Source of the DNA: Candidatus Jorgensenbacteria bacterium CG23_combo_of_CG06-09_8_20_14_all_54_14
GTDB taxonomy: Bacteria; Patescibacteriota; Minisyncoccia; UBA6257; GWB1-50-10
NCBI GenBank assembly: GCA_002772205.1
Contig: PCRZ01000046.1
Span: 1 to 10,709, forward strand
DNA: 10,709 bases
Direction of reading: 5' to 3'
The translations under genes and the position numbers were made by a program. The notes under the pieces were generated by a model that was not told where the DNA came from, did not search any database, and saw nothing but the letters and a program-made list of their open reading frames with translations. Shown here one piece after another: positions 1-10,709 of this stretch; within the stretch, counting starts at the first letter, position 1; each line of letters starts with the position of its first letter.

Positions 1-86
1 TCGCAGGCGAGGCCCGTGCCCCGCGCCACGCAGTTCAGGGGGTCCTCCACCACCTGCACCGCAACCCCGTTGTTATCGAGATGGAG
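1..86 (-). pseudogene. mreB: C-terminal fragment of rod-shape protein MreB (5' part missing, runs off window)
   Basis: Read on the minus strand, positions 86 to 3 encode a short peptide containing VQVVEDPLNCVARGTG. This matches the conserved C-terminal MreB segment (typically ...EDPLt.VARGTG...). MreB is the actin-like cytoskeletal ATPase that organises lateral wall synthesis. An in-frame TAA at 87-89 (minus strand) lies just before the homologous segment, and the sequence further upstream does not look like MreB. The roughly 300 residues expected before this motif are therefore absent. The last few residues would lie left of position 1. It is either a decayed remnant left by rearrangement or an assembly junction. 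The MreB identity is fairly secure; which of these explains the truncation is not. Confidence 0.72.
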
Positions 87-121
87 TTAGCTGAAAGATA
101 GTAGTGATGGTGGAGGGGTTC

Positions 122-143
122 TTGCTATGACGCGTCATAGCAA
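122..143. repeat. 22-bp perfect palindrome, CTATGACGCGTCATAG core
   Basis: Positions 122-143 are a perfect palindrome with no loop, with half-site TTGCTATGACG centred between 132 and 133. The core recurs at 194-211 and 4417-4432 with CATG instead of GCGC at the centre. No T-run follows on either strand, so it is not a classical terminator. It could be a protein-binding dyad, an mRNA 3'-end hairpin or a mobile palindromic repeat. Confidence 0.8.
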
Positions 144-190
144 CTCAAAGTGAGAAGCTCGCAGAATTTACCTCCCTCTGTTTTTCCAAT

Positions 191-214
191 GGCGCTATGA
201 CATGTCATAGCACC
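191..214. repeat. Palindrome GCTATGACATGTCATAGC with GG/CC outer arms
   Basis: Positions 194-211 form a perfect 18-bp palindrome. One mismatched pair (193/212) separates it from matching outer bases GG (191-192) and CC (213-214). It is the second copy of the CTATGAC/GTCATAG family. A minus-strand open frame (195-377) ends with its TAG inside this palindrome, the placement expected of a transcript 3'-end structure if that frame is real. Confidence 0.8.
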
Positions 215-377
215 AGCTGAAGAACCAGCTTAATAGGCGCAACCGTGCCCTCTTTATCTCGCCGTAGTTTCCTTGGCCGTCCGTAACTTTAGTGAAGGAG
301 GCAACGAAGGCGGGTCCGCTGCTGAAATTCTCGCGCCCTACAACGCCACGAAGTGAGAAGAAGGAACGTTTCGCCAT
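195..377 (-). CDS. Possible small hypothetical protein (60 aa), doubtful
   Basis: An ATG-to-TAG open frame on the minus strand in a region otherwise without genes. The peptide has a plausible composition (central SSGPAFVASFTKVTDG, then a basic stretch and a Trp/Phe-rich tail) but I recognise no family. The last residues (CYDMS) are encoded by the CTATGACATGTCATAG palindrome. Upstream on the minus strand (about 392-397) is a TATACC-like hexamer inside the left arm of the large inverted repeat, mirroring the gltX promoter. There is no Shine-Dalgarno. It may be a real mini-gene, part of a decayed gene like the neighbouring mreB fragment, or chance. Confidence 0.2.
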   Translation of the reverse strand: MAKRSFFSLRGVVGRENFSSGPAFVASFTKVTDGQGNYGEIKRARLRLLSWFFSWCYDMS

Positions 378-397
378 TCACTTCTAACGGGGTATAA

Positions 398-468
398 CCC
401 GGTAGTGAAACTGCGACTGGTTTGTAGAACACAAACGGGAGGCACTTGGTCGCAGTTCTACTACCGGG
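398..468. repeat. Large inverted repeat with nested hairpin, abutting the gltX promoter
   Basis: Left arm 398-417 (CCCGGTAGTGAAACTGCGAC) and right arm 449-468 are reverse complements over 20 nt with two adjacent mismatches. One of these would be a G-U pair in RNA. Inside lies a second perfect stem, GTTTGT (420-425) / ACAAAC (431-436), around loop AGAAC. The right arm ends exactly where the gltX -10 TATAAT begins (469), and the left arm is flanked by GGTATAA, so the two halves look like mirrored promoter units. It may be a regulatory dyad or an inverted duplication. Confidence 0.75.
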
Positions 469-474
469 TATAAT
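446..474 (+). promoter_or_regulatory. gltX promoter, probably giving a leaderless mRNA
   Basis: A perfect -10 TATAAT (469-474) has a weak -35 candidate TTGGTC (446-451) at 17-bp spacing. Transcription would be expected to start about 7 nt past the -10, near 481-483, which is the gltX ATG at 483. There is no room for a Shine-Dalgarno. The -35 overlaps the start of the right arm of the inverted repeat, so a bound protein or cruciform there would affect it. Confidence 0.65.
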
Positions 475-482
475 AGCCCCAT

Positions 483-1910
483 ATGCCCGTAAAAGTCCGT
501 TTCGCGCCTTCTCCGACTGGATTTCTCCACATCGGCGGCGTCCGCACAGCCCTCTTCAACTGGCTTTTTGCGCGCCACGTGGGCGGTTCCTTCATGCTGC
601 GCATTGAGGACACGGACACCGAACGTTCGGAAAAGCGGTTTGAGGACGACATCATCCAGAGCTTGGAGTGGCTTGGGTTGACATCCGATGAACCAGTCGT
701 GCGCCAGAGCGAGCGGCGAGCGGTCTACACCCGCTACCTAGGGAAACTCATTGACGAGCGGAAGGCCTACCGCTGTTTCTGCACCCCGGAGACGCTTGAA
801 GCGGACCAGCAGGCGCAGATGAGTCAGGGACTCGCGCCGAAGTACCGCGGCGGTTGCAATGATCTGCCGCCCGCGGAAGCGGAAGCGCGCGCCTCCCGCG
901 AGCCGCACGTCATCCGCTTCCGGATGCCGGAGAAAACCGTCACCTTCACCGACCTCGTACACAGAAAAGTTTCCTTTGACCTGCGCCTTGTGGGGGATAT
1001 CATCATCGCAAAGGGGCTTGGGGAACCGCTCTACAACTTCGCTGTGGTGGTGGATGACGAGGAGAGCGGCATCACACACGTGATACGAGGCGAGGAGCAT
1101 CTCCCGAATACCCCGAAGCAGATGGCGTTTCAAGAAGCACTTGGTTTTCGGACCCCCGCCTATGCGCACCTTCCGCTCATCCTCGGCCCCAACCGAAAAA
1201 AACTCTCCAAGCGCGATCTCTCCAAGTCGGTAGCCGACTACCGTGCTGACGGCTACCTGCCGGAAGCGCTCCTGAATTTCCTCGTGCTCCTCGGCTGGCA
1301 TCCCGTCCGCGACCGCGAGGTGCTCACGGTTCCCGAAATGGTTGAGGAGTTCACCCTTCCGCGGGTACAGAAGGGTGGGGCGGTGTGGAACCCCGAGAAA
1401 CTGGAATGGCTGAACGCGCAGCACATCAAACTTCTTTCGGTCGAGGAGCTTGCGGCGCGCCTGGAACCGTTCGTGCCGCCGCACTGGCGTGGTAATCGGG
1501 AATTCTTCGCCCGCGTGGTCGCGCTGGAGCAGGAGCGCCTCACCACCCTCAAAGCATTTGCCGCATCGGCGAGCTTTTTCTTTGAACTCCCCAACTATCC
1601 AGCCGAACTCCTCCGGTGGAAGGGGACCGATGCGGAAACCACGCGCGGGAACCTTGAGACGGTCATGGCGCTTTTCAAAAAGACCGAAGAACGATCGTTC
1701 ACGCGCGATTTGCTTGAAAAACCGCTCTTCCGCCTCGCCGATGAGCGGGGGAGAGGGGAGTTCCTATGGCCGCTCCGGGTGGCGCTCTCCGGGCGCGAGG
1801 CCTCGCCGGGACCCGTGGAGATCGCGGTGGCGCTCGGCCGTATTGAAACGGTGAATCGCCTCCAGATCGCCGTGGAGAAGCTCGGGGGAGCGGCCACGGT
1901 CGCATCCTGA
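483..1910 (+). CDS. gltX: Glutamyl-tRNA synthetase (class I)
   Basis: Cytoplasmic enzyme that charges tRNA-Glu with glutamate using ATP. The 475 aa match the usual length of about 470. The Rossmann fold opens with the class-I HIGH-type motif (PSPTGFLHIGG, residues 9-19). A zinc-site pattern like that of E. coli GluRS is present: Cys98, Cys100, Tyr121 and Cys125. The KMSKS loop appears as KLSKR (residues 240-244), a common GluRS variant. The C-terminal third (about 320-475) is the helical anticodon-binding part. The ATG at 483 is chosen because the family N-terminus MPVKVRFAPSPTG begins there. The gene lies 8 nt downstream of a perfect TATAAT and has no Shine-Dalgarno. The next gene starts 9 nt after the TGA, suggesting co-transcription. 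If the organism uses GatCAB, the enzyme might also misacylate tRNA-Gln; the sequence alone does not show this. Confidence 0.97.
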   Translation: MPVKVRFAPSPTGFLHIGGVRTALFNWLFARHVGGSFMLRIEDTDTERSEKRFEDDIIQSLEWLGLTSDEPVVRQSERRAVYTRYLGKLIDERKAYRCFCTPETLEADQQAQMSQGLAPKYRGGCNDLPPAEAEARASREPHVIRFRMPEKTVTFTDLVHRKVSFDLRLVGDIIIAKGLGEPLYNFAVVVDDEESGITHVIRGEEHLPNTPKQMAFQEALGFRTPAYAHLPLILGPNRKKLSKRDLSKSVADYRADGYLPEALLNFLVLLGWHPVRDREVLTVPEMVEEFTLPRVQKGGAVWNPEKLEWLNAQHIKLLSVEELAARLEPFVPPHWRGNREFFARVVALEQERLTTLKAFAASASFFFELPNYPAELLRWKGTDAETTRGNLETVMALFKKTEERSFTRDLLEKPLFRLADERGRGEFLWPLRVALSGREASPGPVEIAVALGRIETVNRLQIAVEKLGGAATVAS

Positions 1911-1919
1911 TACACACCT

Positions 1920-3230
1920 ATGCTACCCGCGCGCTTCCGGTGTTTTGTGGTGCAGGTGCTCACCATTATTGTGGGTGCCGGGTTCCTCATGGCGTCTCCC
2001 GCGTGGGGGCAGGCCGCGCCGGAACTCCCCGGTTCCCTTCGCTCGCAGATAGAGGAAAAAGCCCAAGCACTGAAAGAGCTCGCGGCGCGCCGCGAGGCCG
2101 TAGAAAAGAGTCTGGAAGAGGTTCGCGGCTCAAGCGACAGTTTGAAGGGCGAGCTCCGGGAAATTGATGCCGCCGTGAACCAACTGAACCTTTCCATACG
2201 GTCCAACGAGATCACGCTGGAAAAACTCGACCTGGAATACGACGAGCTCGGCGATGAGATCATTGACGCGCAACAAAACATCCGGAACGCCAAGGAGACC
2301 ATTGGAAAACTTTTCACCGAATTGCAGCAGCGGGACCGCGAGAACCTCTTCACACTCTTCTTCCGCAGCTCCAAATTGAGTGAGAGCGTCGCGGAGGTGC
2401 AAACGCTCTCCACCATCCAAGGTCAGCTCACGGAGAATATCGGAAAACTCCGCAACCTGCAGAATACGCTCGCCGAGAAGCGCGCCGCCACCAAAGAGAA
2501 CAAGCGCCGCCGCGAGATCGAGCGGGTGAACCTCGCCAGTCGCCAGAACATCGCGCAGGACCAAAAACAGGAAAAGCAGGTGCTCCTCTCGGCAACCAAG
2601 AGCCAGGAACAGATCTACCAGCAGCAGCTTGAGGACCTGAAGGCGCTCCAGGCGCAGGTGTCCGAAGAAATTGAGGGCATTGAATCCCAGTTGCGGAGCA
2701 CCATTGATAGGAATCTCCTCCCCATCCCGCGCGTGGGGATGCTCCTCTGGCCCGTGGACGGCGGACGGCTCACGCAAGGATACGGGCGTACGGCGTTCGC
2801 GGTCCGTAACTACGGGAGCCAATATCACAACGGCATTGATATCGGCGCCCCCATCGGCACGGAAGTTTTCTCCGCGGCGAACGGCACGGTTATCAATGTC
2901 GGGAACCAGGACGCGTACCGCCGCTGTTACCGGGCGGGCTACGGAAAATTCATCGTCGTGAAGCACGACAACGGCCTGACCACGCTCTACGGCCACCTCT
3001 CAAAGTACCTCGTGAAGATAGGGGATAAGGTTGGGAAGGGGCAGGTCATCGGCTATGTCGGAAGAACGGGATGGGCGACCGGCCCCCATCTCCACTTCAC
3101 GGTGTTCGCGACGCAGACCATCACCCCAGCGCGCGGTAGTTTGCCGGAGGGCGCTATATTTTCGCGCTCGTGCGGCCCTATGCCTGTGGGCGGTGACCTG
3201 GACCCCACCCAATACGTAGAGATGCTATAG
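1920..3230 (+). CDS. Secreted coiled-coil M23 peptidase, EnvC/LytM-like
   Basis: A probable cell-wall hydrolase or amidase activator of 436 aa. Layout: signal peptide or N-terminal anchor with hydrophobic core about 9-25 and a plausible cleavage after Ala-Trp-Gly-Gln-Ala near residue 32; long Lys/Glu/Gln-rich coiled coil about 40-262; M23 (LytM) domain about 275-435. The metal site is visible: His303 and Asp307 in HNGIDIG, and His392 in GPHLHF. His359 (YGHL) and His390 are the expected catalytic histidines. These are all present, so an active metalloendopeptidase is possible, unlike degenerate EnvC. Cys336 and Cys418 in the LytM domain could form a disulfide outside the membrane. The layout resembles EnvC, which works with FtsEX in septum splitting; a partner role here is inference. 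It starts 9 nt after gltX and has no Shine-Dalgarno. Confidence 0.93.
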   Translation: MLPARFRCFVVQVLTIIVGAGFLMASPAWGQAAPELPGSLRSQIEEKAQALKELAARREAVEKSLEEVRGSSDSLKGELREIDAAVNQLNLSIRSNEITLEKLDLEYDELGDEIIDAQQNIRNAKETIGKLFTELQQRDRENLFTLFFRSSKLSESVAEVQTLSTIQGQLTENIGKLRNLQNTLAEKRAATKENKRRREIERVNLASRQNIAQDQKQEKQVLLSATKSQEQIYQQQLEDLKALQAQVSEEIEGIESQLRSTIDRNLLPIPRVGMLLWPVDGGRLTQGYGRTAFAVRNYGSQYHNGIDIGAPIGTEVFSAANGTVINVGNQDAYRRCYRAGYGKFIVVKHDNGLTTLYGHLSKYLVKIGDKVGKGQVIGYVGRTGWATGPHLHFTVFATQTITPARGSLPEGAIFSRSCGPMPVGGDLDPTQYVEML

Positions 3231-3272
3231 AACTAACAACTGATAACTTATAACTAATAACTGGGAACTTAT
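3231..3272. repeat. Two 21-nt degenerate tandem repeats filling the spacer
   Basis: The spacer between the M23 gene stop (3228-3230) and the next ATG (3276) is almost entirely two head-to-tail 21-nt units, 3231-3251 and 3252-3272, identical at 18 of 21 positions. Both begin AACTAA and end AACTTAT. The unit starts at the first base after the stop codon. The word AACTAACAAC recurs in the spacer before csoR (7741-7750). The region is A-rich and unstructured, with no Shine-Dalgarno. Confidence 0.8.
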
Positions 3273-3275
3273 ACG

Positions 3276-4271
3276 ATGGGAAAAGAAGAAGTAACAAAAG
3301 AAGTATGGAACGAGCGGGCGGCTGCGCGCGGCGGCTCCCTTCTCCAGTCGTGGGAATGGGGAGCGCTCCAGGAAGCGCTCGGCCGGAGGGTGATGCGCTT
3401 TACCACTTCTGACTTCCTCGCCTCCGCCGTTGGTTATCCGCTCCCCTTTGGGAAGCGGTACTGGTATGTGCCCCACGGACCGATGTTCCTCCGGCAGCCT
3501 GCTCCGGAGACGTTCCGCGCCATCGCCCCGGCGCTCGCGCCGCATTGCGGGGATAGTTCCATTTTTCTGAAGATAGAACCGGCGCTCACCGACACGCCTG
3601 AGCACCGCGCGCTCCTCCGCGCGGCGGGGTGGAAGAGGGCCGCTGACACACAGCCCTCAGAAACACTCCTCATAGATCTCACCAAGCCGGAACCAGAACT
3701 CTTGAAGGAAATGGAGCACGACACCCGCTATGCCATCCGTGCGGCGGTGCGGCGCGGGGTTGCGGTAACCGTTGCCCGGACGGCGGAGGAGAAGGCGCGC
3801 GCGTTTCCGCTGTTCTGGGACCTTTTTGAAGGAACCAACATCCGCCACGAGCTCCACGCGTATGAAAAGCATTACTATGAAGAAGTAGCGAAGCTCCAAG
3901 GCAACCTGCCTGCGCAGGCAGGTTGCTACACGGAGATTTTCCTCGCCGCACTGGAAGGAGAGACTATTGCGGCGGCCATCGTTGCCTACTTTGGGAAGCG
4001 TGCGTACTACCTCTATGCCGCTTCCAAAACCGGCATGGGAAAATTCAACGCTCCCTCGCTCATCCTTTGGGAAGCCATCCGGGGCGCGAAGCAAAAATGG
4101 TGTATCGTGTTTGACCTCTGGGGTATAAGCGAAACCAGGCGCGAGTGGAAAGGCGTGACGGCGTTCAAAAGGAGTTTCGGTGGCAGGGAAGTGAAAATGG
4201 TGGGCACGTGGGAGTACCCGCTCCAACCGCTCTGGTACTGGGGGTACCGTGTCGCTAAGCAACTAATGTGA
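3276..4271 (+). CDS. FemX/FemAB-like peptidoglycan-bridge aminoacyltransferase
   Basis: A likely cytoplasmic GNAT-fold transferase that adds an amino acid from aminoacyl-tRNA to the lipid II side chain (FemX/FemAB/MurM family). Visible family features: an N-terminal segment with LLQSWEWGALQEALG (22-36); a central PSETLLIDL (127-135) followed by the basic helix DTRYAIRAAVRRGV (149-162); and a second half with EIFLAALEGETIAAAIVAYFG and the closing DLWGI...WKGVTAFKRSFGG (280-303), which is diagnostic. At 331 aa it is of normal size but carries an odd loop, GNLPAQAGC (209-217), encoded by a perfect palindrome. Family members usually run straight from the Tyr-rich helix into the EIFLA strand. It follows the M23 gene by 45 nt of tandem repeat and probably shares its transcript. 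The amino acid and acceptor cannot be told from sequence. Confidence 0.88.
   Translation: MGKEEVTKEVWNERAAARGGSLLQSWEWGALQEALGRRVMRFTTSDFLASAVGYPLPFGKRYWYVPHGPMFLRQPAPETFRAIAPALAPHCGDSSIFLKIEPALTDTPEHRALLRAAGWKRAADTQPSETLLIDLTKPEPELLKEMEHDTRYAIRAAVRRGVAVTVARTAEEKARAFPLFWDLFEGTNIRHELHAYEKHYYEEVAKLQGNLPAQAGCYTEIFLAALEGETIAAAIVAYFGKRAYYLYAASKTGMGKFNAPSLILWEAIRGAKQKWCIVFDLWGISETRREWKGVTAFKRSFGGREVKMVGTWEYPLQPLWYWGYRVAKQLM
3901..3926. repeat. 26-bp perfect palindrome inserted in frame in the FemX-like gene
   Basis: Positions 3901-3926 are a perfect loopless palindrome with half-site GCAACCTGCCTGC. It adds NLPAQAGC to the protein between a helix and a beta-strand. Because it is symmetrical, the minus strand also encodes NLPAQAGC. 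From memory (not searched), a CCTGCCTGCGCAGGCAGG core recurs in CPR genomes, so this is probably an in-frame palindromic mobile repeat comparable to Rickettsia RPEs. Confidence 0.8.
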
Positions 4272-4277
4272 ATTGTT

Positions 4278-4301
4278 GGTGCTACAGTTAACTGTAGCAC
4301 C
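4278..4301. terminator. 24-bp perfect palindrome 6 nt after the FemX-like gene stop
   Basis: Positions 4278-4301 form a perfect palindrome with half-site GGTGCTACAGTT. In RNA it would fold into a 10-bp stem with a tetraloop. Its position just after the TGA suggests a transcript-end structure. No T-run follows on the plus strand (CCGTATTAATT), so it is not a canonical intrinsic terminator. The outer arms GGTGCTA/TAGCACC resemble those at 4413-4419 and 191-214. Confidence 0.5.
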
Positions 4302-4315
4302 CCGTATTAATTGCC

Positions 4316-4351
4316 ATGACCGAATCGCAAGCCAAAACGTGTCAGTCATAG
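4316..4351 (+). pseudogene. Truncated 5' copy of the CxxC mini-gene (copy 1)
   Basis: An ATG at 4316 opens a frame reading MTESQAKTCQS and then TAG (4349-4351). It aligns with the N-termini of the frames at 4479 (MNQETKTCQNC) and 4589 (MTKSQTKVCQNC): acidic/Gln/Lys run, then TCQ. The second Cys codon and everything after it are lost. It looks like a decayed 5' remnant of the same gene. Too short to be sure, but the threefold match at the expected positions makes chance less likely. Confidence 0.5.
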
Positions 4352-4410
4352 TCGCAGCACAGAGAGATAGTGTATTATGAACAGTGTAATAATGCGGAGC
4401 CGGTTTAAGA

Positions 4411-4451
4411 GGGGTGCTATGACATGTCATAGTGCTACCCCACGGGGTAGC
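4411..4451. repeat. Compound palindrome: CTATGACATGTCATAG plus overlapping GCTACCCC/GGGGTAGC hairpin
   Basis: A perfect 16-bp palindrome, CTATGACATGTCATAG (4417-4432), is the third copy of this family. It is flanked by GGGGTG (4411-4416) and GTGCTACCCC, which can pair imperfectly. The right flank GCTACCCC (4434-4441) is also a perfect partner for GGGGTAGC (4444-4451), giving a second hairpin with loop AC. The two foldings compete for the same arm. The sequence TACCCC-AC-GGGGTA also resembles a CsoR-type operator. What follows is AAAAATAAATTTAG, then a frame at 4479. Confidence 0.7.
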
Positions 4452-4478
4452 AGTCAAAAATAAATTTAGTCAGAAGAT

Positions 4479-4592
4479 ATGAATCAAGAAACGAAAACTT
4501 GTCAGAATTGTCCCGATTTTGTCACCGAGCGTAGCGAGGAGATACAAAATCGTGGATGCACGATTCCGAAGGAATCGGCACAAACACCATGA
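4479..4592 (+). pseudogene. Degenerate copy of the CxxC mini-gene with hairpin insert (copy 2)
   Basis: A 37-codon frame from ATG 4479 to TGA 4590-4592. The start, MNQETKTCQNC, parallels the intact copy at 4589. After the CxxC it turns into a repeat-encoded tail: an inverted repeat CGATTTTGT (4514-4522) / ACAAAATCG (4544-4552), then a hairpin CGATTCC-GAA-GGAATCG (4561-4577). The second CxxC is absent, so a zinc ribbon could not form. The TGA overlaps the ATG of copy 3 (ATGA, 4589-4592), so translation through it could couple to the intact gene. It is either a broken copy or an upstream leader ORF. Confidence 0.5.
4514..4577. repeat. Two-hairpin palindromic insert
   Basis: Arms CGATTTTGT (4514-4522) and ACAAAATCG (4544-4552) enclose 21 nt containing the CGAGCGTAGCGAG word. 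Immediately after is CGATTCC-GAA-GGAATCG (4561-4577), extended by TGC/GCA with a bulged A. The block sits inside copy 2 of the CxxC gene exactly where homology to copy 3 is lost, as expected of an inserted structured repeat. Confidence 0.65.
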
Positions 4593-4759
4593 CTAAATCA
4601 CAAACGAAGGTTTGTCAAAACTGTCACCAGGAATTCCGTATTGAACCGGACCCACAGCACCCAAGCACCCGCATGGAGAGGGGGTCCATGCCCCACTACG
4701 CCAAAGGTGACCCCCGAGCGATCTACTGCAACGAGTGCTATTCAAAGGTGGTAGCTTGA
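4589..4759 (+). CDS. CxxC-CxxC zinc-ribbon mini-protein (56 aa)
   Basis: The product has two Cys pairs, CQNC (residues 9-12) and CNEC (48-51, in AIYCNECYSKVV), spaced as in small treble-clef/zinc-ribbon proteins. It probably binds one zinc; partner and role are unknown. The middle (PDPQHPSTRMERGSMPHYAKGDPR) is polar and likely a loop. An alternative ATG at 4556 would add 11 residues, but those codons come from a hairpin and the ATG at 4589 matches the start of the copies at 4316 and 4479, so 4589 is preferred. It overlaps the stop of copy 2 by ATGA. I do not recognise a named family, though such mini zinc ribbons are common in CPR genomes. Confidence 0.65.
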   Translation: MTKSQTKVCQNCHQEFRIEPDPQHPSTRMERGSMPHYAKGDPRAIYCNECYSKVVA

Positions 4760-4790
4760 GGAGAGGTAGTCGGGGTGCTACCAATCAGAG

Positions 4791-4810
4791 GTTGTCTAAA
4801 GTTGTCTAAG
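4791..4810. repeat. Tandem 10-nt direct repeat GTTGTCTAAA/G
   Basis: GTTGTCTAAA (4791-4800) is followed at once by GTTGTCTAAG (4801-4810), so the copies sit one helical turn apart on the same DNA face. They lie 15 nt before the 32-bp palindrome and about 100 nt before the promoter of the 4950 gene. It may be an activator or repressor site or slippage. Confidence 0.5.
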
Positions 4811-4825
4811 GGTGATTCGGACAAA

Positions 4826-4857
4826 TGTTACAATCTCGCGATCGCGAGATTGTAACA
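4826..4857. repeat. 32-bp perfect loopless palindrome
   Basis: Positions 4826-4857 are perfectly self-complementary, half-site TGTTACAATCTCGCGA, centred on CGCGATCGCG. No T-tract follows. It lies in the gap between the zinc-ribbon gene (stop 4759) and the copper/redox island (start 4950). It may separate transcripts (bidirectional hairpin) or be a mobile palindrome. Confidence 0.85.
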
Positions 4858-4907
4858 AACTTGCGGTGCTGAACGTCCACGCGGGTGGGGTAAGCCACAG
4901 TGGTAGT

Positions 4908-4935
4908 TTGAAAAAATCCTGCCGTAGGGTAGAAT
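4908..4935 (+). promoter_or_regulatory. Promoter for the 4950 gene
   Basis: TTGAAA (4908-4913) and TAGAAT (4930-4935) at 16-bp spacing. The start would be near 4942, only about 8 nt before the ATG at 4950. The AAGGAAG at 4936-4942 could be a weak Shine-Dalgarno but would mostly fall outside the transcript. It opens the island. Confidence 0.55.
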
Positions 4936-4949
4936 AAGGAAGTCAATCT

Positions 4950-5357
4950 ATGACCGTCAGAAACATCAATAAATATATCTCGTTGGGAGCGGTGCTCACC
5001 GCGTTCATCGCCATTGCGCTCTTCGGCACCCTCATTATGGCGAAGGAGGCCGGCCACGACGGGTGCATCGCGGCGCGCACGAACGGCGGAAATTGCCCCA
5101 TCACCGACCGATTCTTCGCCTACGTCAACTTCCACCTGAACGCCGCGAAAGGTTTCTCCACCGGCATCCTCGCGACGCTCGCGGTTCTCGGCGCGATGCT
5201 CCTCTTCGCCGCGATACCGGTGCCAGTTGCGGCGGGACCTTCGCCCGGCTACATCCCCGGTTATTGCAACCACCTCTCGCAGGTTTCCTCCATTGCATCG
5301 TTCCAGAAGTTTACCCGCTGGTTCTCGCTCAAAGAGAACGCCCCGAACGGGGCGTAG
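4950..5357 (+). CDS. Unrecognised two-pass membrane protein with HxxC...CP motif (135 aa)
   Basis: Two hydrophobic segments (about 11-31 and 70-93) flank an exposed loop, GHDGCIAARTNGGNCP, with His36, Cys39 and Cys49-Pro50, then FAYVNFHLNAAKGFSTG. A further Cys106-Asn-His lies past the second segment (GYCNHLS). The Cys/His arrangement and the neighbouring DUF1573, CcdA and copper genes suggest metal binding or thiol redox at the membrane; this is inference and I do not know the family. The final codons (NAPNGA-stop) lie in a hairpin, ACGCCCC-GAAC-GGGGCGT (5338-5355), so the very C-terminus may have been reshaped by a repeat. Confidence 0.75.
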   Translation: MTVRNINKYISLGAVLTAFIAIALFGTLIMAKEAGHDGCIAARTNGGNCPITDRFFAYVNFHLNAAKGFSTGILATLAVLGAMLLFAAIPVPVAAGPSPGYIPGYCNHLSQVSSIASFQKFTRWFSLKENAPNGA

Positions 5358-5400
5358 ACGCGCCGCGGAACAAGAACAGATCCGCCGGCGCGCTTCTTTC
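5338..5400 (+). terminator. Tandem hairpins with T-rich tail after the 4950 gene
   Basis: The first hairpin, ACGCCCC-GAAC-GGGGCGT (5338-5355), overlaps the stop codon. The second pairs CGCGCCGCGGA (5359-5369) with TCCGCCGGCGCG (5381-5392), one base bulged, loop of 11 nt, followed by CTTCTTTC (5393-5400). This strong G+C-rich stem with a pyrimidine tail is the best intrinsic-terminator candidate in the window. It would split the 4950 gene from the DUF1573 gene or attenuate between them. Confidence 0.55.
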
Positions 5401-5461
5401 GCGCTCCCTTCAGGTGGAGACGCTCGTTCACTAAAACTTCAAACAAATAAAACAAATTCTC

Positions 5462-5965
5462 ATGACCAAAAATAAAATCATCCTCATCTTCGTCGGCGTC
5501 GCGGTACTCATTGTAGTACTCTTCGTCGTCGGGAAACCTGGCACGGCACCCGCGGGAGCTGATCTCTCTCAAGCTGTCGCGCCGGGCACCCTCGCCGCCG
5601 CAGAAAGCAACTTTGATTTCGGCGCTGTCTCCATGGCGGCTGGGAAGGTTACCCATACCTTTGTCGTAAAGAACGACAGCGCCGCCCCCCAGCCGCTCAC
5701 CCGTTTCTACACCTCGTGTATGTGCACCGAAGCGACGCTCATCCAAGGGGGGCGGCGGATGGGACCCGTCGGCATGGCGGGCCATAGCCCCGTTCCAAAC
5801 TGGAACCTCACGATTGCCCCCGGCGAGGAGGTACAAGTGGAGGTAACTTTTGACCCGGCGGCGCACGGGCCCGCCGGCATCGGTGCGATAGCGCGGGAGG
5901 TGCGCCTGGAGTCGGACACGGGGACACTCCTCACGCTCGGCATTACCGCGAACGTAACACCCTAA
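5462..5965 (+). CDS. DUF1573 protein, membrane-anchored, with TSCMCT motif
   Basis: An N-terminal hydrophobic helix (about 6-23) anchors or exports the protein. The rest is an Ig-like DUF1573 domain of about 110 residues: FDFGAVSMAAGKVTHTFVVKN (51-71, first strands), then PLT..YTSCMCTEA with Cys86 and Cys88, and closing strands LTIAPGEEVQVEVTFDP (116-132). The Cys-x-Cys after TS is typical of the family and is a likely thiol or metal site. At 167 aa the length is normal. It is 7 nt from the CcdA-like gene, so the two are translationally close; a CcdA-type carrier could keep these external cysteines reduced (inference). There is no Shine-Dalgarno; the leader before ATG is A-rich (AAATAAAACAAATTCTC). 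Confidence 0.85.
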   Translation: MTKNKIILIFVGVAVLIVVLFVVGKPGTAPAGADLSQAVAPGTLAAAESNFDFGAVSMAAGKVTHTFVVKNDSAAPQPLTRFYTSCMCTEATLIQGGRRMGPVGMAGHSPVPNWNLTIAPGEEVQVEVTFDPAAHGPAGIGAIAREVRLESDTGTLLTLGITANVTP

Positions 5966-5972
5966 CCACCAC

Positions 5973-6761
5973 ATGATCAAAAACAGAACCACGTTCATCC
6001 TCATCGGCATCGTCGTGCTCCTCGCCGCGTTCCTCATGTTCCTCAAGTGGAGCGGCGGCGCCACAACGGCGCTCTGGAATCTCTCCGAAGGCGGCAAGGC
6101 ATTCCTCCCGCTCCTCCTCGTCTCGGCGTTCATAGACAGCGTGAACCCATGCGCTTTCTCAGTGCTCCTCCTCACCATAGCATTCCTATTCAGCATAGGG
6201 CAGCTCCGGAACGGCATCCTGAATGTCGGCGGCGCCTACGTCCTCGGCATCTTCGTTGCCTACTTCCTCATCGGCCTCGGCATTCTTGAGACCCTCTCGT
6301 TCTTCAACATCCCGAACTTCATGGGGAAATTGGGTTCGGCGCTCCTCATCCTCCTTGGGGCCATCAGTCTCGTAAATTTCTTCTTCCCGCGATTCCCGAT
6401 AAAGCTGAAGATTCCCGATGCCGCCCACTCAAAAATGGCGGCGCTCATGGAAAAAGCGTCAGTGCCGGCCGCATTCGCGCTCGGGGGCCTCGTCGCGCTC
6501 TGTGAATTTCCCTGCACCGGCGGGCCATACCTCATGATCCTGGGGCTCCTCCACGACACCCGCACCTACCTCTCCGGCTTCGGCTACCTCATCCTCTATA
6601 ACCTTGTCTTCGTAGCCCCGCTCGTCCTCATCTTCGGAATCGCCGCGAACGAAACGCTCCTCACCCGGGTGCAAACGTGGCGCAAGGAGAATGTCCGCGG
6701 CATGCACCTTTTGGGCGGCCTCGCCATGGTATTTCTGGGACTCCTCATCCTCGTGCTTTAG
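5973..6761 (+). CDS. CcdA/DsbD-type transmembrane thiol-electron carrier
   Basis: A membrane protein of 262 aa that would pass reducing equivalents from the cytoplasm to proteins outside. About seven hydrophobic segments are seen: a first one (about 7-25) beyond the six-helix CcdA core, then about 46-73, 82-104, 118-138, 163-192, 202-226 and 243-262. The two signature sites are present: SVNPCAFSVLLL with Cys60, and LCEFPCTGGPY with Cys177 and Cys181. Family members use one Cys in each half as the redox pair. No thioredoxin domain is fused. Likely partners are the DUF1573 protein just upstream and the Cys-rich 291-aa protein downstream. Classical cytochrome c maturation genes are absent here, so a copper or thiol role is more likely than haem; that is inference. 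Confidence 0.88.
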   Translation: MIKNRTTFILIGIVVLLAAFLMFLKWSGGATTALWNLSEGGKAFLPLLLVSAFIDSVNPCAFSVLLLTIAFLFSIGQLRNGILNVGGAYVLGIFVAYFLIGLGILETLSFFNIPNFMGKLGSALLILLGAISLVNFFFPRFPIKLKIPDAAHSKMAALMEKASVPAAFALGGLVALCEFPCTGGPYLMILGLLHDTRTYLSGFGYLILYNLVFVAPLVLIFGIAANETLLTRVQTWRKENVRGMHLLGGLAMVFLGLLILVL

Positions 6762-6773
6762 GCCTTCAAGGCC
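6761..6773. repeat. Short GGCCTT-C-AAGGCC hairpin at the CcdA-like stop
   Basis: A 13-nt odd palindrome begins on the last base of the TAG stop. It is short, has a tiny loop and no T-run, so a terminator role is weak. It lies between the CcdA-like gene and the copper-controlled promoter. Confidence 0.3.
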
Positions 6774-6800
6774 CGCGAGGGAGGGGGTTGTCCCGTACTA

Positions 6801-6829
6801 TTGACCAATATACCCCCAGGGGGTATCAT
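6801..6829 (+). promoter_or_regulatory. CsoR-type operator inside a strong promoter
   Basis: TTGACC (6801-6806) and TATCAT (6824-6829) are exactly 17 bp apart. The spacer is filled by a perfect odd dyad, ATACCCCC-A-GGGGGTAT (6810-6826). Published CsoR operators, such as that upstream of Bacillus copZA, have this TACCC...GGGTA shape. The csoR-like gene lies one gene downstream. A repressor bound here would block polymerase; copper would relieve it. The transcript would start about 6836-6838, one to three bases before the ATG at 6839, so the mRNA is probably leaderless. Confidence 0.85.
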
Positions 6830-6838
6830 ACCAACCAT

Positions 6839-7714
6839 ATGGAAACCGATCGTACTCGTTACCTCATACCGCTCTCCCTGCTTCTCGCCGTGCTCGTGGT
6901 GGGTATCGGTTGGATATATCGAGAAGGCCGCCAGACGCTCCCGCCACAGGAGGTCGCCGCAGATATCAGTCGGGTGCTCCTGCCCGCGGAAGGCATCACG
7001 CTTCCGGTGCGGTGGGGAAATCTCGGTGCGCAACTGGTCACCGCCGGCGTCATTGATGCCGATAAATTTGAATCGCTCTACCGGACCCGGGGCGGCCTCA
7101 CCAAGGAAGAAAAAACGCTGCTCACCGGAGAACAAAACGTGCCGCTCAAGATTGATGCCGAGAACGCACCGGTGATCCTGAATCTTCTCTGGGCGTTCGG
7201 CCTCGCGAACAAGAACTCTATCCTCACCGACGGACCCATGGCGGACCCCCGCTACGGCGGAGCGCAGAACTTCGCCTCCACCGGCGGGTGGACGCTCTCG
7301 AAGGGGGACACCATGACCCATTACAGCGCCCACCCGTTCATAACGCTCACCAAGGAACAGCAGGAGCTCGTGGAGCGGGTGAGTAAGAATATCTATCGTC
7401 CCTGTTGTGGGAACGCCACCTACTTCCCGGACTGCAACCATGGGATGGCGATGCTGGGGCTCTTGGAACTCATGGCTGCGCAGGGCGCCGACGAAGCGGC
7501 CATGTACCGTGCCGCGCTCGCCGTGAATTCCTACTGGTTTCCCGACCAGTACCGCACCATCGCCGCATACCTGAAGGAGAGGGGAACGGCATGGGAGGAG
7601 GCGGACCAGCAAGCGCTCCTCGGATATGATTTCTCAAGCGGAGAGGGATTTCAGCGCGTCCTCGCGGAAACGAAACCGGTGGAAAAACAGGGAGGCGGCA
7701 GCTGCGGGGTATGA
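6839..7714 (+). CDS. Copper-promoter-controlled membrane-anchored Cys/His protein of unknown function (291 aa)
   Basis: An N-terminal helix (about 8-26) anchors a soluble domain, probably outside the cell. Potential metal or redox residues: His161 and His165 (HYSAHPF), Cys189-Cys190, Cys199 and His201 (RPCCGNATYFPDCNHGMAMLG), and Cys289 in a C-terminal GGGSCGV tail. The FPDCNHG block looks strongly conserved in type, and I recall similar unnamed CPR proteins, but I know no function. An upstream in-frame ATG (6677) was rejected because it would overlap the CcdA-like gene and span the operator. The promoter fits the 6839 start. Its place as first gene behind a CsoR operator, followed by csoR, a SHOCT protein and a copper ATPase, makes copper binding or Cu-linked thiol chemistry the leading guess (inference). 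Confidence 0.85.
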   Translation: METDRTRYLIPLSLLLAVLVVGIGWIYREGRQTLPPQEVAADISRVLLPAEGITLPVRWGNLGAQLVTAGVIDADKFESLYRTRGGLTKEEKTLLTGEQNVPLKIDAENAPVILNLLWAFGLANKNSILTDGPMADPRYGGAQNFASTGGWTLSKGDTMTHYSAHPFITLTKEQQELVERVSKNIYRPCCGNATYFPDCNHGMAMLGLLELMAAQGADEAAMYRAALAVNSYWFPDQYRTIAAYLKERGTAWEEADQQALLGYDFSSGEGFQRVLAETKPVEKQGGGSCGV

Positions 7715-7727
7715 TTAATGACTTACC

Positions 7728-7789
7728 ACCAACGACAAACAACTAACAACAAATAACTAACGACGTGTAACCAACGACAAACAACTAAC
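7728..7789. repeat. A/C-rich repeat spacer before csoR
   Basis: ACCAACGACAAACAACTAAC occurs at 7728-7747 and again, identical, at 7770-7789. The offset of 42 nt is twice 21; the intervening 21 nt (7749-7769) are a weak third unit. The region is almost free of G and would be unstructured RNA. It fills most of the 79-nt gap between the 291-aa gene and csoR and shares AACTAACAAC with the spacer at 3231. Confidence 0.8.
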
Positions 7790-7793
7790 GGCC

Positions 7794-8063
7794 ATGAAAC
7801 CAGACGTAAAACGAAAAGCCACGCGGCGGCTCAAGATCGTTGAGGGCCAGGTGCGCGGCCTCCAGAACATGGTGGAACGCGAACAATACTGCATTGATAT
7901 CCTCCGACAGTCATTAGCGGTCAAGGAAGCGCTCTCTGGCGTTGAAGACCTCATCCTTGAAAATCACCTTGCCACCCACGCCGCGGCGCAGATGCGCGCG
8001 GGAAAAACAGCGAAGGCAGTCAAAGAAATTCTCACCATCTACAGGTCATCGCGAAAAAAGTGA
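7794..8063 (+). CDS. csoR: CsoR-family copper-sensing repressor (C-H-H site)
   Basis: An all-helical DUF156 repressor of 89 aa that binds DNA as an oligomer and is released by Cu(I). Family signature: RRLKIVEGQVRGLQNMVE (11-28), then YCIDIL with Cys33, and LENHLATH with His58 and His62. The spacing (25, then 4) equals that of the Cu site in M. tuberculosis CsoR (Cys36, His61, Cys65), but the third ligand is His. Thermus thermophilus CsoR is known with Cys-His-His and still senses copper, so copper remains likely; RcnR-type nickel/cobalt sensing needs an N-terminal His, absent here. The CsoR-like operator at 6810-6826 lies upstream, so it probably represses its own operon. There is no Shine-Dalgarno. 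Confidence 0.92.
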   Translation: MKPDVKRKATRRLKIVEGQVRGLQNMVEREQYCIDILRQSLAVKEALSGVEDLILENHLATHAAAQMRAGKTAKAVKEILTIYRSSRKK

Positions 8064-8111
8064 ATAACGGGGCATAGTCGGACCTCGCATAAAAATCATC
8101 AATAATAATTT

Positions 8112-8339
8112 ATGATGTGGAATTGGGGATATGGCGGCGGTTGGGGATGGGGCGGCACGCTTATGATGTTCCTCTGGTGGATGTTTGTGATTATCGCGCT
8201 CGTGACACTGGTGCAGTGGTTTACCCGCCGTTCTTCCTGTTACGGCGGCGATAAGGCGCTTGAAATTTTGAAGGAGCGCTATGCCCGCGGAGAGATAGAC
8301 AAGAAGGAGTTCGAGGAGAAGAAGGAAGATTTAATCTAA
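8112..8339 (+). CDS. SHOCT-domain mini membrane protein (75 aa)
   Basis: The N-terminus is rich in Trp and Gly (WNWGYGGGWGWGG) and leads into one transmembrane helix (about 16-37). A C-terminal SHOCT motif follows: ALEILKERYARGEIDKKEFEEKKEDL (49-74), with the typical LKxRYAxGEIxxxEFEEKK pattern. SHOCT proteins of this size are frequently found beside copper ATPases and other heavy-metal genes; their role is thought to be binding or oligomerisation at the membrane but is unproven. ATG 8112 and ATG 8115 are both possible starts. It lies 48 nt after csoR and likely shares its transcript, although a GTCGGACCT element (8077-8085) could mark a separate signal. Strong palindromes follow. Confidence 0.85.
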   Translation: MMWNWGYGGGWGWGGTLMMFLWWMFVIIALVTLVQWFTRRSSCYGGDKALEILKERYARGEIDKKEFEEKKEDLI

Positions 8340-8390
8340 TCATCCGGATGATATTAACAAATTACACGGCCGTGTAATTTGTTAATATCA
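8339..8390. repeat. 14-bp and 42-bp perfect palindromes, overlapping, after the SHOCT gene
   Basis: ATCATCCGGATGAT (8339-8352) starts on the last base of the SHOCT stop codon and overlaps by 4 nt a 42-bp perfect loopless palindrome (8349-8390; half-site starts TGATATTAACAAATTACACG, centre GGCC). The second is the longest symmetrical block in the window. In RNA it would fold into a very stable stem with a tetraloop; the AT-rich end contains TTTGTTAATATC but no clean T-run. Likely a transcript boundary or processing site in front of copB, or a mobile palindrome. Confidence 0.85.
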
Positions 8391-8460
8391 GTGTCCTGTA
8401 GGATTTTAGTGCTGTCGGACCTGGTTTAAATAATTTCGACAACATACCTTTCGGATAACT

Positions 8461-10650
8461 ATGGATCACCATCACAAGTCGGTGCCGGCGGAGAAACCGC
8501 CGGAATCATACACGTGTCCCATGCACCCCGAGGTGCAAGAGCCGCAACCGGGGATGTGCCCTGAATGCGGCATGCACCTCGTGCCTCAACGCGCGGCTAA
8601 AAATGAAGAGCATGGGGGAAAGAACAACGCGTACGACAAACCCGCCTCCGCGCATACTATGGCGGGTAAGCATGAAGGCCACCACACGCAGGATTTCCTG
8701 AAAAAATTCTGGTTGAGCGCGGCGCTCACGGTTCCCATCGTCCTTTACTCGGAACTACCCGAACAGTTGTTCGGGTGGACTCCGCCGCCGTTCGAGGGCG
8801 TGCCGTATCTCACGTTTGCGCTAAGCTCGCTCGTCTTTTTCTACGGCGGATGGGTGTTCCTCGCGGGGGCGTGGCGCGAGCTCCGCGCGAAGCTCCCGGG
8901 GATGATGACGCTTATCGCCATTGCCATCGCCGCCGCCTATTTTTGGAGCGTGTACGCCACATTCTCCAGCGCCGGCCACACCCTTTTCTGGGAGCTCGCC
9001 ACGCTCATCACCGTTATGCTCCTCGGGCACTGGCTTGAAATGTGCGCGGTGGCGTCCACCCAGGGAGCGCTCAAAGAACTTTCCAAACTTCTCCCTGACA
9101 CCGCCGAGGTCATCCGCGAAGGGGAACGTGTCACGGTTGGGCTCCGCGAGCTCAAGGAGGGCGACGTGGTGTTCGTGCGTCCCGGAAGCAGTATCCCGGC
9201 CGACGGTGTCGTCACCGAGGGACGTTCGCAGGTGAACGAATCCATGGTGAGCGGGGAATCAAAACCGGTGGAGAAAGAGGTGGGGAGCGAGGTCATCGCC
9301 GGCACCATAAACGGCGACGGAGCTCTCATGGTGCGGGTGATAAAGATCGGCGAACACACGTTCCTCGCGGGGGTCATGCGCCTCGTGTGCGACGCGCAGG
9401 CCTCCAAATCGCGCCTCCAGATGCTCTCCGACCGCGCCGCGTTCTTCCTAACCATCATCGCGGTCACGGGAGGCGGTGTCGCGTTCGTTTGGTGGCTACT
9501 CGCGGGGGCGGACACCGCGTTCGCGTTCGAGCGACTCGTCGCGGTCCTGGTCATCGCGTGCCCGCACGCGCTGGGGCTCGCGGTCCCGCTCGTGGCATCG
9601 CTCTCCACCACCCTTGCGGCGCGGAAGGGATTCCTCGTCCGCGAACGGCTTGCGTTGGAGCGCGCCCGCAACGTTGATATCGTGCTCTTTGATAAAACTG
9701 GAACGCTCACGAAGGGCGAGTACGGCGTAAAGAAGGTGATTGCCGCGGCACTTTTCACCGAATCCCAGGTGCTGCAGTACGCCGCATCGGTGGACCAAAA
9801 TTCGGAGCACTTCGTGGCGCGGGCGATCGTCCGTGAGGCGAAAAATCGGAACGTTTCCCTGCTCCCCGTCAAAGATTTTGAGCGGATTCCCGGCAAGGGG
9901 GTGCGTGGCGCGGTGGGCGAAGCGCAGGTCATGTCAGGCGGCGAAGCGATGTTTGCTGAAACGAACCGCTCGCTTCCGCCGGCCATTGCCGCATCGCTCC
10001 GTGAATTTGCCGAAGGGGGAAGTACTATTATCTACGTTGCGGTGAACGGCTCTCTCGCGGGTGCCATTGTGCTCGCCGACATTGTTCGCGACGAATCCCG
10101 CGAGGCGGTGCGTGACCTGAAAGCGATGGGTCTCCAAGTTGCCATGCTCACCGGCGATGCGGAGGCGGTGGCGCAGTGGGTCGCAAAAGAGCTGACATTG
10201 AACGAGTATTTTGCAAAAGTACTGCCGCAGGAAAAAGCGGTGAAGGTGAAGGAGCTTCAGGCGCGCGGATTACGGGTCGCGATGGTTGGGGACGGAGTGA
10301 ACGACGCTCCTGCACTTACCCAAGCCGATGTCGGCATCGCCGTGGGCGCGGGCACGAACGTTGCCATTGAGTCCGCGGGCATCGTGCTCATGCGAAGCGA
10401 CCCCCGCGATATCGCAAAAATAATTTCGCTCTCCCGCGCCACCTATCGGAAAATGCTCCAGAACCTTTTCTGGGCGACCGGCTACAACGTAGTGGCACTC
10501 CCCCTGGCCGGCGGGGCGCTCGCGAGCCAGGGTATTCTCCTCCAGCCCGCTGCTTCCGCCGTGCTTATGTCGTTCTCTACCGTCATCGTGGCGGCGAACG
10601 CACTCCTTTTGCGCCGCTGGGCGCGCGAGAAACCGCGCCCGCACGGGTAG
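8461..10650 (+). CDS. copB: CopB-type P1B-3 copper-exporting ATPase
   Basis: A 729-aa integral membrane pump using ATP to export copper. The N-terminus is metal-binding: HHH (3-5), a heavy-metal-binding domain with CPMHP (Cys19) and CPECGM (Cys33, Cys36), then a His-rich run (65-75). About eight helices follow. The actuator SGES is at 264-267. CPH (367-369) in helix 6, N-x6-YN-x4-P (668-681) in helix 7 and MSFST (703-707) in helix 8 together define the P1B-3/CopB group. DKTGTLT starts at Asp411, the phosphorylated residue; GDGVNDAP is at 610-617. The N-domain motif reads SEHF (448-451) where SEHP is usual. It follows the SHOCT gene by 121 nt with a large palindrome between, so it may have its own promoter; none is convincing. 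There is no Shine-Dalgarno. Confidence 0.96.
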   Translation: MDHHHKSVPAEKPPESYTCPMHPEVQEPQPGMCPECGMHLVPQRAAKNEEHGGKNNAYDKPASAHTMAGKHEGHHTQDFLKKFWLSAALTVPIVLYSELPEQLFGWTPPPFEGVPYLTFALSSLVFFYGGWVFLAGAWRELRAKLPGMMTLIAIAIAAAYFWSVYATFSSAGHTLFWELATLITVMLLGHWLEMCAVASTQGALKELSKLLPDTAEVIREGERVTVGLRELKEGDVVFVRPGSSIPADGVVTEGRSQVNESMVSGESKPVEKEVGSEVIAGTINGDGALMVRVIKIGEHTFLAGVMRLVCDAQASKSRLQMLSDRAAFFLTIIAVTGGGVAFVWWLLAGADTAFAFERLVAVLVIACPHALGLAVPLVASLSTTLAARKGFLVRERLALERARNVDIVLFDKTGTLTKGEYGVKKVIAAALFTESQVLQYAASVDQNSEHFVARAIVREAKNRNVSLLPVKDFERIPGKGVRGAVGEAQVMSGGEAMFAETNRSLPPAIAASLREFAEGGSTIIYVAVNGSLAGAIVLADIVRDESREAVRDLKAMGLQVAMLTGDAEAVAQWVAKELTLNEYFAKVLPQEKAVKVKELQARGLRVAMVGDGVNDAPALTQADVGIAVGAGTNVAIESAGIVLMRSDPRDIAKIISLSRATYRKMLQNLFWATGYNVVALPLAGGALASQGILLQPAASAVLMSFSTVIVAANALLLRRWAREKPRPHG

Positions 10651-10709
10651 AAGGAGAGTGAAACGGATAGAGAGATAGTGAAACAGGCAGAGGGAGGGTG
10701 AAAGTATAA
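10651..10709. repeat. Three degenerate 20-nt purine-rich tandem repeats after copB
   Basis: Units 10651-10670, 10671-10690 and 10691-10709 (cut by the window end) begin immediately after the copB stop (10648-10650). Each carries a purine run (AGGAGAG, AGAGATAG, AGGGAGGG) followed by GTGAAA at the same place in the period. The word AGAGAGATAGTG (10669-10680) also occurs at 4361-4372. The array resembles the 21-nt spacer repeats at 3231 and 7728 in design but not in base composition. Confidence 0.75.

Follow-up and report, generated by a model that had tools for sequence, protein, structure and literature searches.

An undescribed membrane-anchored thiol protein behind a CsoR-type operator in Patescibacteria, with a predicted CcmH-like fold and a putative role in copper defence

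The nearest known parallel to the locus analysed here is Scs (ScsB/ScsC, suppressor of copper sensitivity), in which an extracytoplasmic thiol protein is tied to copper tolerance. That protein is fed by a DsbD-type carrier. ScsC of Caulobacter is reported to be a Cu(I)-binding disulfide isomerase (PMC8900818), and ScsC of Proteus is described as thioredoxin-like (PMC5524982). Copper operons controlled by csoR are a further point of comparison, and a study of Streptomyces lividans CsoR presents the form TAC-X9-GTA as a feature that a number of these operators share (PMC3902906; further general background on CsoR in PMC4938975, PMC10318464 and PMC13101592). A review (PMC3884852) describes the cytochrome c maturation protein CcmH as a bundle of three helices in which the loop joining helices 1 and 2 carries the motif; the second cysteine is exposed and thought to attack, and the Pseudomonas aeruginosa protein has a single membrane helix. 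Among the open-licence papers listed, judged on titles and abstract openings, there was nothing on the protein family considered below (P291); for CsoR and copper in the Candidate Phyla Radiation there was no paper, and for CsoR in Parcubacteria none on this topic.

The window, meaning the whole stretch of DNA that was analysed, is contig 31 (positions 1-10709) of the 508,565-base genome of a very small, uncultured Patescibacteria bacterium. Its putative copper operon and the genes just upstream are laid out as follows.

4950-5357, + strand: MP135, a 135-residue membrane protein with Cys39 and Cys49 (translation, alignment)
5462-5965, + strand: DUF1573 protein, anchored, with a C-x-C pair (PF07610, E 4e-12)
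5973-6761, + strand: CcdA-like thiol electron carrier with NPC and FPC cysteines (NCBIfam ArsG and DsbD matches below their cut-offs)
6801-6829, + strand: predicted promoter, -35 TTGACC at 6801-6806, 17-base spacer, -10 TATCAT at 6824-6829 (consensus scan)
6810-6826, no strand: CsoR-type operator, perfect dyad ATACCCCCAGGGGGTAT, TAC-X9-GTA (pattern match and recurrence in relatives)
6839-7714, + strand: P291, a 291-residue membrane-anchored, presumably extracytoplasmic thiol protein of an undescribed family (open reading frame, profile searches, alignment)
7794-8063, + strand: putative CsoR repressor (PF02583, E 2.6e-22; Y32, C33, H58, H62, E78)
8112-8339, + strand: small, presumably membrane-bound protein with SHOCT at its C-terminal end (PF09851, E 5.2e-9)
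8461-10650, + strand: P1B ATPase, copper type, with an HMBD N-terminus and a CPH motif, CopB-like (TIGR01511 and HMBD match)

The half-sites ATACCCCC-A-GGGGGTAT at 6810-6826 form a perfect dyad, as an earlier note on this DNA had read, and are the sole match in the window; the operator pattern found nothing in 200 shuffles of the window, even with two mismatches permitted, and a search of the whole genome for TACCCCNNNGGGGTA gave a single site. The note's statement that the dyad fills the 17-base spacer needs amending: its 5' edge lies three bases inside the spacer and its 3' edge covers the first three bases of the -10 element. The form is that of the type 2 operator (TAC-X9-GTA plus a pair of G/C tracts), and it recurs, since TACCCC-N1-4-GGGGTA gave 31 sites in 30 of the 108 loci scanned (all 112 at that stage except L001, L030, L031 and L032; the locus's own entry, L002, included), while reversed and inside-out control patterns gave none in the same loci. 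On the empty shuffles and controls a chance dyad was rejected, and the CsoR-type form proposed in the note is borne out.

A -35-like hexamer lies on one strand beside 28 of the 29 distinct dyad sites, by a loose pattern that had no control. The ATG of P291 starts nine bases past the end of the -10 element, so its transcript may be leaderless. Relatives resemble the window in this respect: of 29 orientations of dyad promoters, 16 have their first usable ATG 6-9 bases past the -10 (elsewhere in 7, none within reach in 6), a spacing from which transcripts at dyad promoters in Patescibacteria are probably leaderless.

The gene that follows the dyad varies. Among seven gene families recognised, csoR comes next at 21 of the 31 sites; the dyad precedes the P1B ATPase in L021, L086 and L094, an MP135-CcdA block leading on to P291 in L076 and L079, and csoR followed by P291 in L102. 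It stands directly ahead of P291 only in the window, L022 and L024, and L022 weighs less because its P291 gene is possibly broken or in two frames (the same genome, G028, has two adjacent P291 pieces that may be one broken gene). The note's picture of P291 as the first gene behind the dyad holds for these three loci; the dyad is real, yet its placement ahead of P291 is a local arrangement, csoR usually being the next gene. There is no second dyad in the window, which leaves the upstream MP135-DUF1573-CcdA block without one; a consensus match at 4908-4935 may mark a different promoter for this block. Elsewhere in the window, a 16-base palindrome (CTATGAC-AT/CG-GTCATAG) occurs three times between genes, at 125-140, 195-210 and 4417-4432, and a 67-residue open reading frame with two CxxC pairs (4556-4759) has a relative in only 1 of 112 loci.

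The gene after P291 is csoR, as the note had it, and its product carries the fingerprint of Cu(I)-sensing CsoR proteins: the PF02583 domain, a Cys-His-Cys/His ligand set, and Tyr and Glu in the second shell. All 43 distinct sequences (window included) retain the Tyr, Cys, first His and Glu; as third ligand, 35 have His and 8 have Cys. At the position of InrS Glu95 the window protein has A75, and hence no acid. According to PMC4235346, the Cys/His pattern alone is no predictor of the metal, the Tyr of the second shell seems to be predictive of Cu(I) selectivity, and the Cu(I)-sensing CsoR of Thermus thermophilus has His at the third ligand position; the departure of the window protein from Cys-His-Cys is therefore no argument against copper.

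The P1B ATPase scores 566.9 bits against the copper model TIGR01511 (cut-off 397) and about equally, 569.5 bits, against the heavy-metal model TIGR01525. Together with the CPH motif read from the translation, the TIGR01511 score points to a putative CopB-type pump, a metal assignment read from sequence, and we take CPH in the membrane helix to mark the CopB subtype of P1B ATPases. No HMA or CopZ match was found among the nine window proteins scanned with Pfam. The operon is thus like csoR-controlled copper operons with the type 2 operator, as presented in PMC3902906, in operator form, regulator and P1B ATPase; it differs in opening with an undescribed thiol protein and in a start that is apparently leaderless.

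That opening gene encodes the 291-residue product described in the note, with HYSAHPF (161-167), RPCCGN, FPDCNHG and a C-terminal GGGSCGV (285-291) in the places given there, and the anchor proposed in the note is consistent with a predicted N-terminal helix. Its main parts are these.

6854-6925, + strand: N-terminal helix, residues 6-29, presumed membrane anchor (secondary structure of the model, hydrophobic sequence)
7331-7684, + strand: predicted CcmH-like helical domain, residues 165-282 (domain model, Foldseek, hhalign)
7397-7414, + strand: RPCCGN (187-192), with invariant Arg187, Cys189, Cys190 and Asn192 (alignment)
7424-7444, + strand: FPDCNHG (196-202), with invariant Asp198, Cys199, Asn200 and His201 (alignment)
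7703-7705, + strand: Cys289 in the C-terminal tail (139 of 140 rows)

P291 belongs to an undescribed family, as the note had supposed. At E 1, profile searches matched the protein to nothing in Pfam, NCBIfam or PADLOC, and PHROGs gave only two weak matches (E 0.09); sequence searches against solved structures gave one weak match each, and 69 aligned members searched against Pfam gave scattered weak matches (best E 0.015), CcmH not among them. A phage or defence origin was rejected, there being no such relatives and no significant families: P291 had no match in phage records, none in viral contigs (six peptide patterns) and none in a viral structure library. Homologues are present in 26 of 59 genomes of the same order and family and in 29 of a sample of 286 from across the phylum (own genome included in both), and the contigs with a named lineage among the best 80 of 396 loci belong mostly to Patescibacteria/Parcubacteria groups. 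A homologue assigned to Thermodesulfovibrionia (L079) is probably a stray Patescibacteria contig, because in a 245-genome sample of its phylum only L079's own genome had P291.

Some homologues are built differently. In L026, L028 and L029, P291 is preceded by a fused membrane domain that contains an ACPxCG motif, matches no Pfam family significantly and looks MerT-like by eye; the L028 and L029 fusions also have an N-terminal Cys-rich segment. The homologue at L027:1498-2592 has a DUF7128 N-terminus (E 2.6e-6), and genomes G011 and G038 each have two P291 matches, one short and one long and fused.

Arg187, Cys189, Cys190, Asn192, Asp198, Cys199, Asn200 and His201 are invariant in 140 of 140 aligned rows, a set in which the window protein is present twice (L147) and L030, the second piece of the G028 match, is omitted. 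Met203 is kept in 131 and Met205 in 120 of these rows. Of the Cys/His motifs listed in the note, the cysteines and His201 are conserved in this way, but the histidines of HYSAHPF vary (H161 in 114 of 140 rows, H165 in 101). Loci L033-L112 are the best 80 of 396 obtained from peptide patterns that included DCNHGMAM, so motif conservation in them is partly by selection; rows from the genome searches (L003-L029, L146-L175), obtained without a motif pattern, show the same conservation. Some organisms are present twice (e.g., L005/L034, L006/L066, L007/L094), and locus counts are therefore not counts of independent lineages.

Neighbouring genes place P291 in a copper and thiol setting. Among the 53 of these 80 loci with at least 3.5 kb on both sides, MP135 lies within 3.5 kb on the same strand in 44, CcdA in 42, the P1B ATPase in 40, DUF1573 in 32, csoR in 17 and SHOCT in 13. 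Either csoR or the ATPase is there in 46, and L075 alone has none of the searched partners. On either strand, CcdA has 45 copies in 371 kb near P291 vs 3 in 412 kb far from it, the ATPase 46 vs 10 and csoR 18 vs 9. The links to metal genes and to the CcdA-like carrier proposed in the note therefore stand; homologues without the Cys/His residues, or mostly without copper genes, which would have counted against the note's idea, are not what the loci contain, most of those examined adjoining such genes. The P1B ATPase profile used for neighbours covers more than copper types, and the 97 ATPase reading frames that it found comprise 32 with CPC, 29 with CPH and 36 with no motif, many of these possibly fragments. 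Other neighbours up to 5 kb away, over the best 80 of 396 loci, form clusters that include, each named from one representative (Pfam), AhpC/TSA redoxin (21), DUF5676 (11), DUF3105 (9), DUF411 (8), ICMT (8) and a cupredoxin-holding cluster (11 loci) in which 6 of 18 members are ATPase reading frames.

The partner proteins share conserved cysteines. Both Cys39 and Cys49 of MP135, which has no match in Pfam or NCBIfam, are kept in 64 of 64 rows; C86 and C88 of DUF1573 are kept in 58 of 60, the other two being gapped; and of 87 CcdA rows, 78 have Cys60 and 86 have Cys181. The CcdA-like protein has no Pfam match and takes its putative name from the below-cut-off ArsG and DsbD matches and the conserved cysteines. 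These conserved cysteines make a thiol relay via MP135, DUF1573, CcdA and P291 plausible.

Whole genomes tell a similar story for the thiol partners. Across the 59 genomes, MP135 is present in 18 of 26 with P291 vs 3 of 33 without (p 2e-6), CcdA in 19 of 26 vs 11 of 33 (p 0.004) and a TIGR01511 match above cut-off in 24 of 26 vs 21 of 33 (p 0.013), p values that ignore kinship and multiple testing. Co-occurrence with csoR, which the note had proposed to survey, is seen among same-strand neighbours (the 17 of 53 loci above) and not across genomes, where csoR is present in 16 of 26 vs 16 of 33 (p 0.43, not significant); where a genome has both csoR and P291, they lie at most 5 kb apart in 13 of 16 cases and on different contigs in the other 3. 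Absent from genomes with P291 are a window-type CcdA in 7 of 26, MP135 in 8 and csoR in 10.

Outside Patescibacteria, 9 of 72,556 plasmid records hold P291 homologues, all from Burkholderia or Paraburkholderia. One Burkholderia homologue, 37% identical to P291, has CueR, CcdA, AhpC/TSA, thioredoxin, ICMT, DUF411, P-type ATPase and SCO genes within 10 kb. Compared with the proteins of 80 Patescibacteria-type loci and the window, its CcdA, AhpC/TSA, ICMT, DUF411 and ATPase have 27, 20, 8, 8 and 57 relatives, respectively, a second peroxiredoxin 4, the thioredoxin 1 and the DUF2933 protein none; the Paraburkholderia CcdA has only 1. The strongest argument for a copper and thiol setting of P291 is that its neighbours are similar in both phyla. 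By eye, the Burkholderia and Paraburkholderia proteins (L031 9857-10807 and L032 9848-10765) have twin-arginine-like starts (RRRFL, TRRDF), unlike the Patescibacteria anchor. PCYCGC lipoproteins (PF13798), which are likewise Cys-rich, adjoin heavy-metal ATPases in 3 of 4 annotated plasmid loci inspected; a relationship was rejected, as the profile alignment to P291 was not meaningful (E 0.28). PF13798 was not found in the 59 genomes, where its 14 controls were equally silent.

Structure prediction suggests that the C-terminal domain of P291 is CcmH-like in fold. The whole-length model (pLDDT 91.1, pTM 0.83; mean pLDDT of the last block, with the Cys289 tail, 36) had no PDB match at E 0.001 or better in Foldseek, and the top probability among the 50 matches listed, 0.30, was that of CcmH 2hl7. 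Modelled alone (pLDDT 94.1, pTM 0.87), residues 165-282 had as their top two PDB matches the CcmH proteins 2kw0 of Escherichia coli (probability 0.98, E 0.30, rmsd 2.6 over 66 columns) and 2hl7 of P. aeruginosa (probability 0.99, E 0.45, rmsd 1.9 over 63 columns), the other 48 matches listed having probabilities of at most 0.08. CcmH was ranked first by the domain cut only, not by the whole-length model, and E values of 0.30-0.45 make the fold match suggestive, short of proof. The predicted helices span 172-182, 200-214 and 219-233, with the cysteine loop between the first two.

Profile alignment gave a similar picture. CcmH was chosen for this test after the first Foldseek hint, and the 30 rows added to the P291 profile had been required to carry both motifs, which all 30 loci did. 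In hhalign, 140 P291 domains against 20 CcmH plus 11 CcmH-like sequences aligned with E 0.00096 (probability 22%), placing RPCCGN against LRCxxCQN and DCN against DSN; the score of 28.0 was reached in 0 of 40 (best 24.5) and 0 of 160 (best 24.7) column shuffles. Against CcmH alone the values were E 0.014 and 3%, and with a narrower P291 profile E 0.12 and 0.5%; the 11 CcmH-like sequences alone aligned elsewhere, to the P291 N-terminal domain (E 0.0092). Five unrelated profiles gave E 0.05-0.41, and a reversed CcmH set gave 0.24. Separately, eight longer reading frames from the phylum of G059 (L132-L138, L140) contain the CcmH-like segment CPCECPMVLEDCHMSC, a variant form of CcmH whose DC motif is reminiscent of the one in P291.

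CcmH (PF03918; 2hl7, 2kw0) and P291 have in common a membrane anchor, presumed in P291, and C-x-N followed by D-x-N; the P291 model also puts the cysteines in a predicted loop between helices of a helical bundle. P291 differs in having RPCCxN for LRCxxC, an additional DCNHG and C-terminal Cys, an added N-terminal domain and a copper operon. In the alignment, Cys190 takes the position of the second CcmH cysteine and Arg187 that of the first, so the CxxC chemistry is not directly transferable to P291. Nor is P291 predicted to be thioredoxin-like, which sets it apart from ScsC.

P291 is probably part of the cell's copper defence, and we give about even chances to the view that it is a copper-induced, membrane-anchored extracytoplasmic thiol protein of CcmH-like fold, reset through CcdA. 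We infer a working in which, without copper, CsoR would sit on the 6810-6826 dyad and block the promoter, and Cu(I) would free CsoR so that P291 is produced along with CsoR, the SHOCT protein and the P1B ATPase. The ATPase would export copper, which outside the membrane could bind and oxidise thiols; there, P291 might take up Cu(I), carry out thiol-disulfide exchange via a Cys189-Cys190/Cys199-His201 site, or both, the CcdA-like carrier passing electrons across the membrane to reset it and the DUF1573 protein and MP135 acting as further thiol partners. In the CcmH-like domain, LRCxxCxN of CcmH would have become RPCCxN, a second site, DCNH, would open the next helix, and Cys289 would be mobile. 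More tentatively, and on balance doubtfully, P291 could be the first of a class of copper-thiol enzyme with the CcmH fold, using its Cys189-Cys190/Cys199-His201 site and electrons from CcdA to reduce copper, or thiols that copper has damaged, outside the membrane, in a module (MP135-DUF1573-CcdA-P291) partly shared with proteobacterial plasmids; near-minimal Patescibacteria would then hold a complete extracytoplasmic copper-redox module.

The earlier note had offered a copper chaperone, a buffer or a Cu-dependent thiol enzyme as functions, and the predicted CcmH-like fold, which it had not seen, favours the third. As a chaperone or buffer without redox turnover, P291 would hold Cu(I) exported by the ATPase on Cys189, Cys190, Cys199, His201, Met203/Met205 and a mobile Cys289, CcdA only keeping the ligands reduced. 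The invariant Cys and His, the largely kept methionines, the operon shared with csoR and a copper-type ATPase, the cupredoxin and DUF411 neighbours at some loci and a flexible tail suited to metal hand-over all agree with this; P291 is, however, tied more closely to the thiol-redox block of MP135 and CcdA than to csoR, and with its CcmH-like fold this leaves a chaperone or buffer role possible but on the unlikely side. The same tie could be taken further: P291 would then serve the CcdA pathway as a general extracytoplasmic disulfide reductase, with copper control a lineage-specific addition, since copper oxidises thiols. The greater regularity of the CcdA/MP135 block as a neighbour and the P291 genomes that lack csoR would suit such a role, but the enrichment of copper-type ATPases in P291 genomes, the csoR or ATPase genes beside P291 at 46 of 53 loci and the metal genes around both plasmid loci read make it improbable.

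Metals other than copper have their own indications: merAB is about 8 kb away from one of the Paraburkholderia homologues, and the ACPxCG domain of the three fusions looks like MerT by eye. A role for P291 with another soft metal, mercury or silver, nevertheless has little probability next to a neighbouring CsoR with the Cu(I)-type fingerprint and a CPH ATPase above the copper-ATPase cut-off. The fold resemblance might also be read as making P291 the CcmH of cytochrome c maturation itself, which we regard as almost certainly wrong. LRCxxC is absent, with R-x-C-C instead in 140 of 140 rows; PF03918 matched neither P291 nor any of the 69 members; and heme-handling assembly proteins (PF01578) are nearly absent, occurring in 2 of 59 genomes (above cut-off in G013, which has no P291, and below it, at 17.8 bits, in G011, which has) and not in the window's own genome. 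For these reasons P291 is not classed as CcmH despite its predicted fold.

The preferred reading remains a copper-induced thiol protein reset through CcdA, whose family is new although the kind of system is known. Genomes of Patescibacteria are very small and the stress systems described from them are few, yet P291 occurs among them at the frequencies given above. If this reading is true, a copper-linked thiol pathway would be present in the Patescibacteria radiation, the CcmH fold would have a use other than cytochrome c maturation, and MP135, the DUF1573 protein and P291 would stand as three uncharacterised partners whose roles can be tested together.
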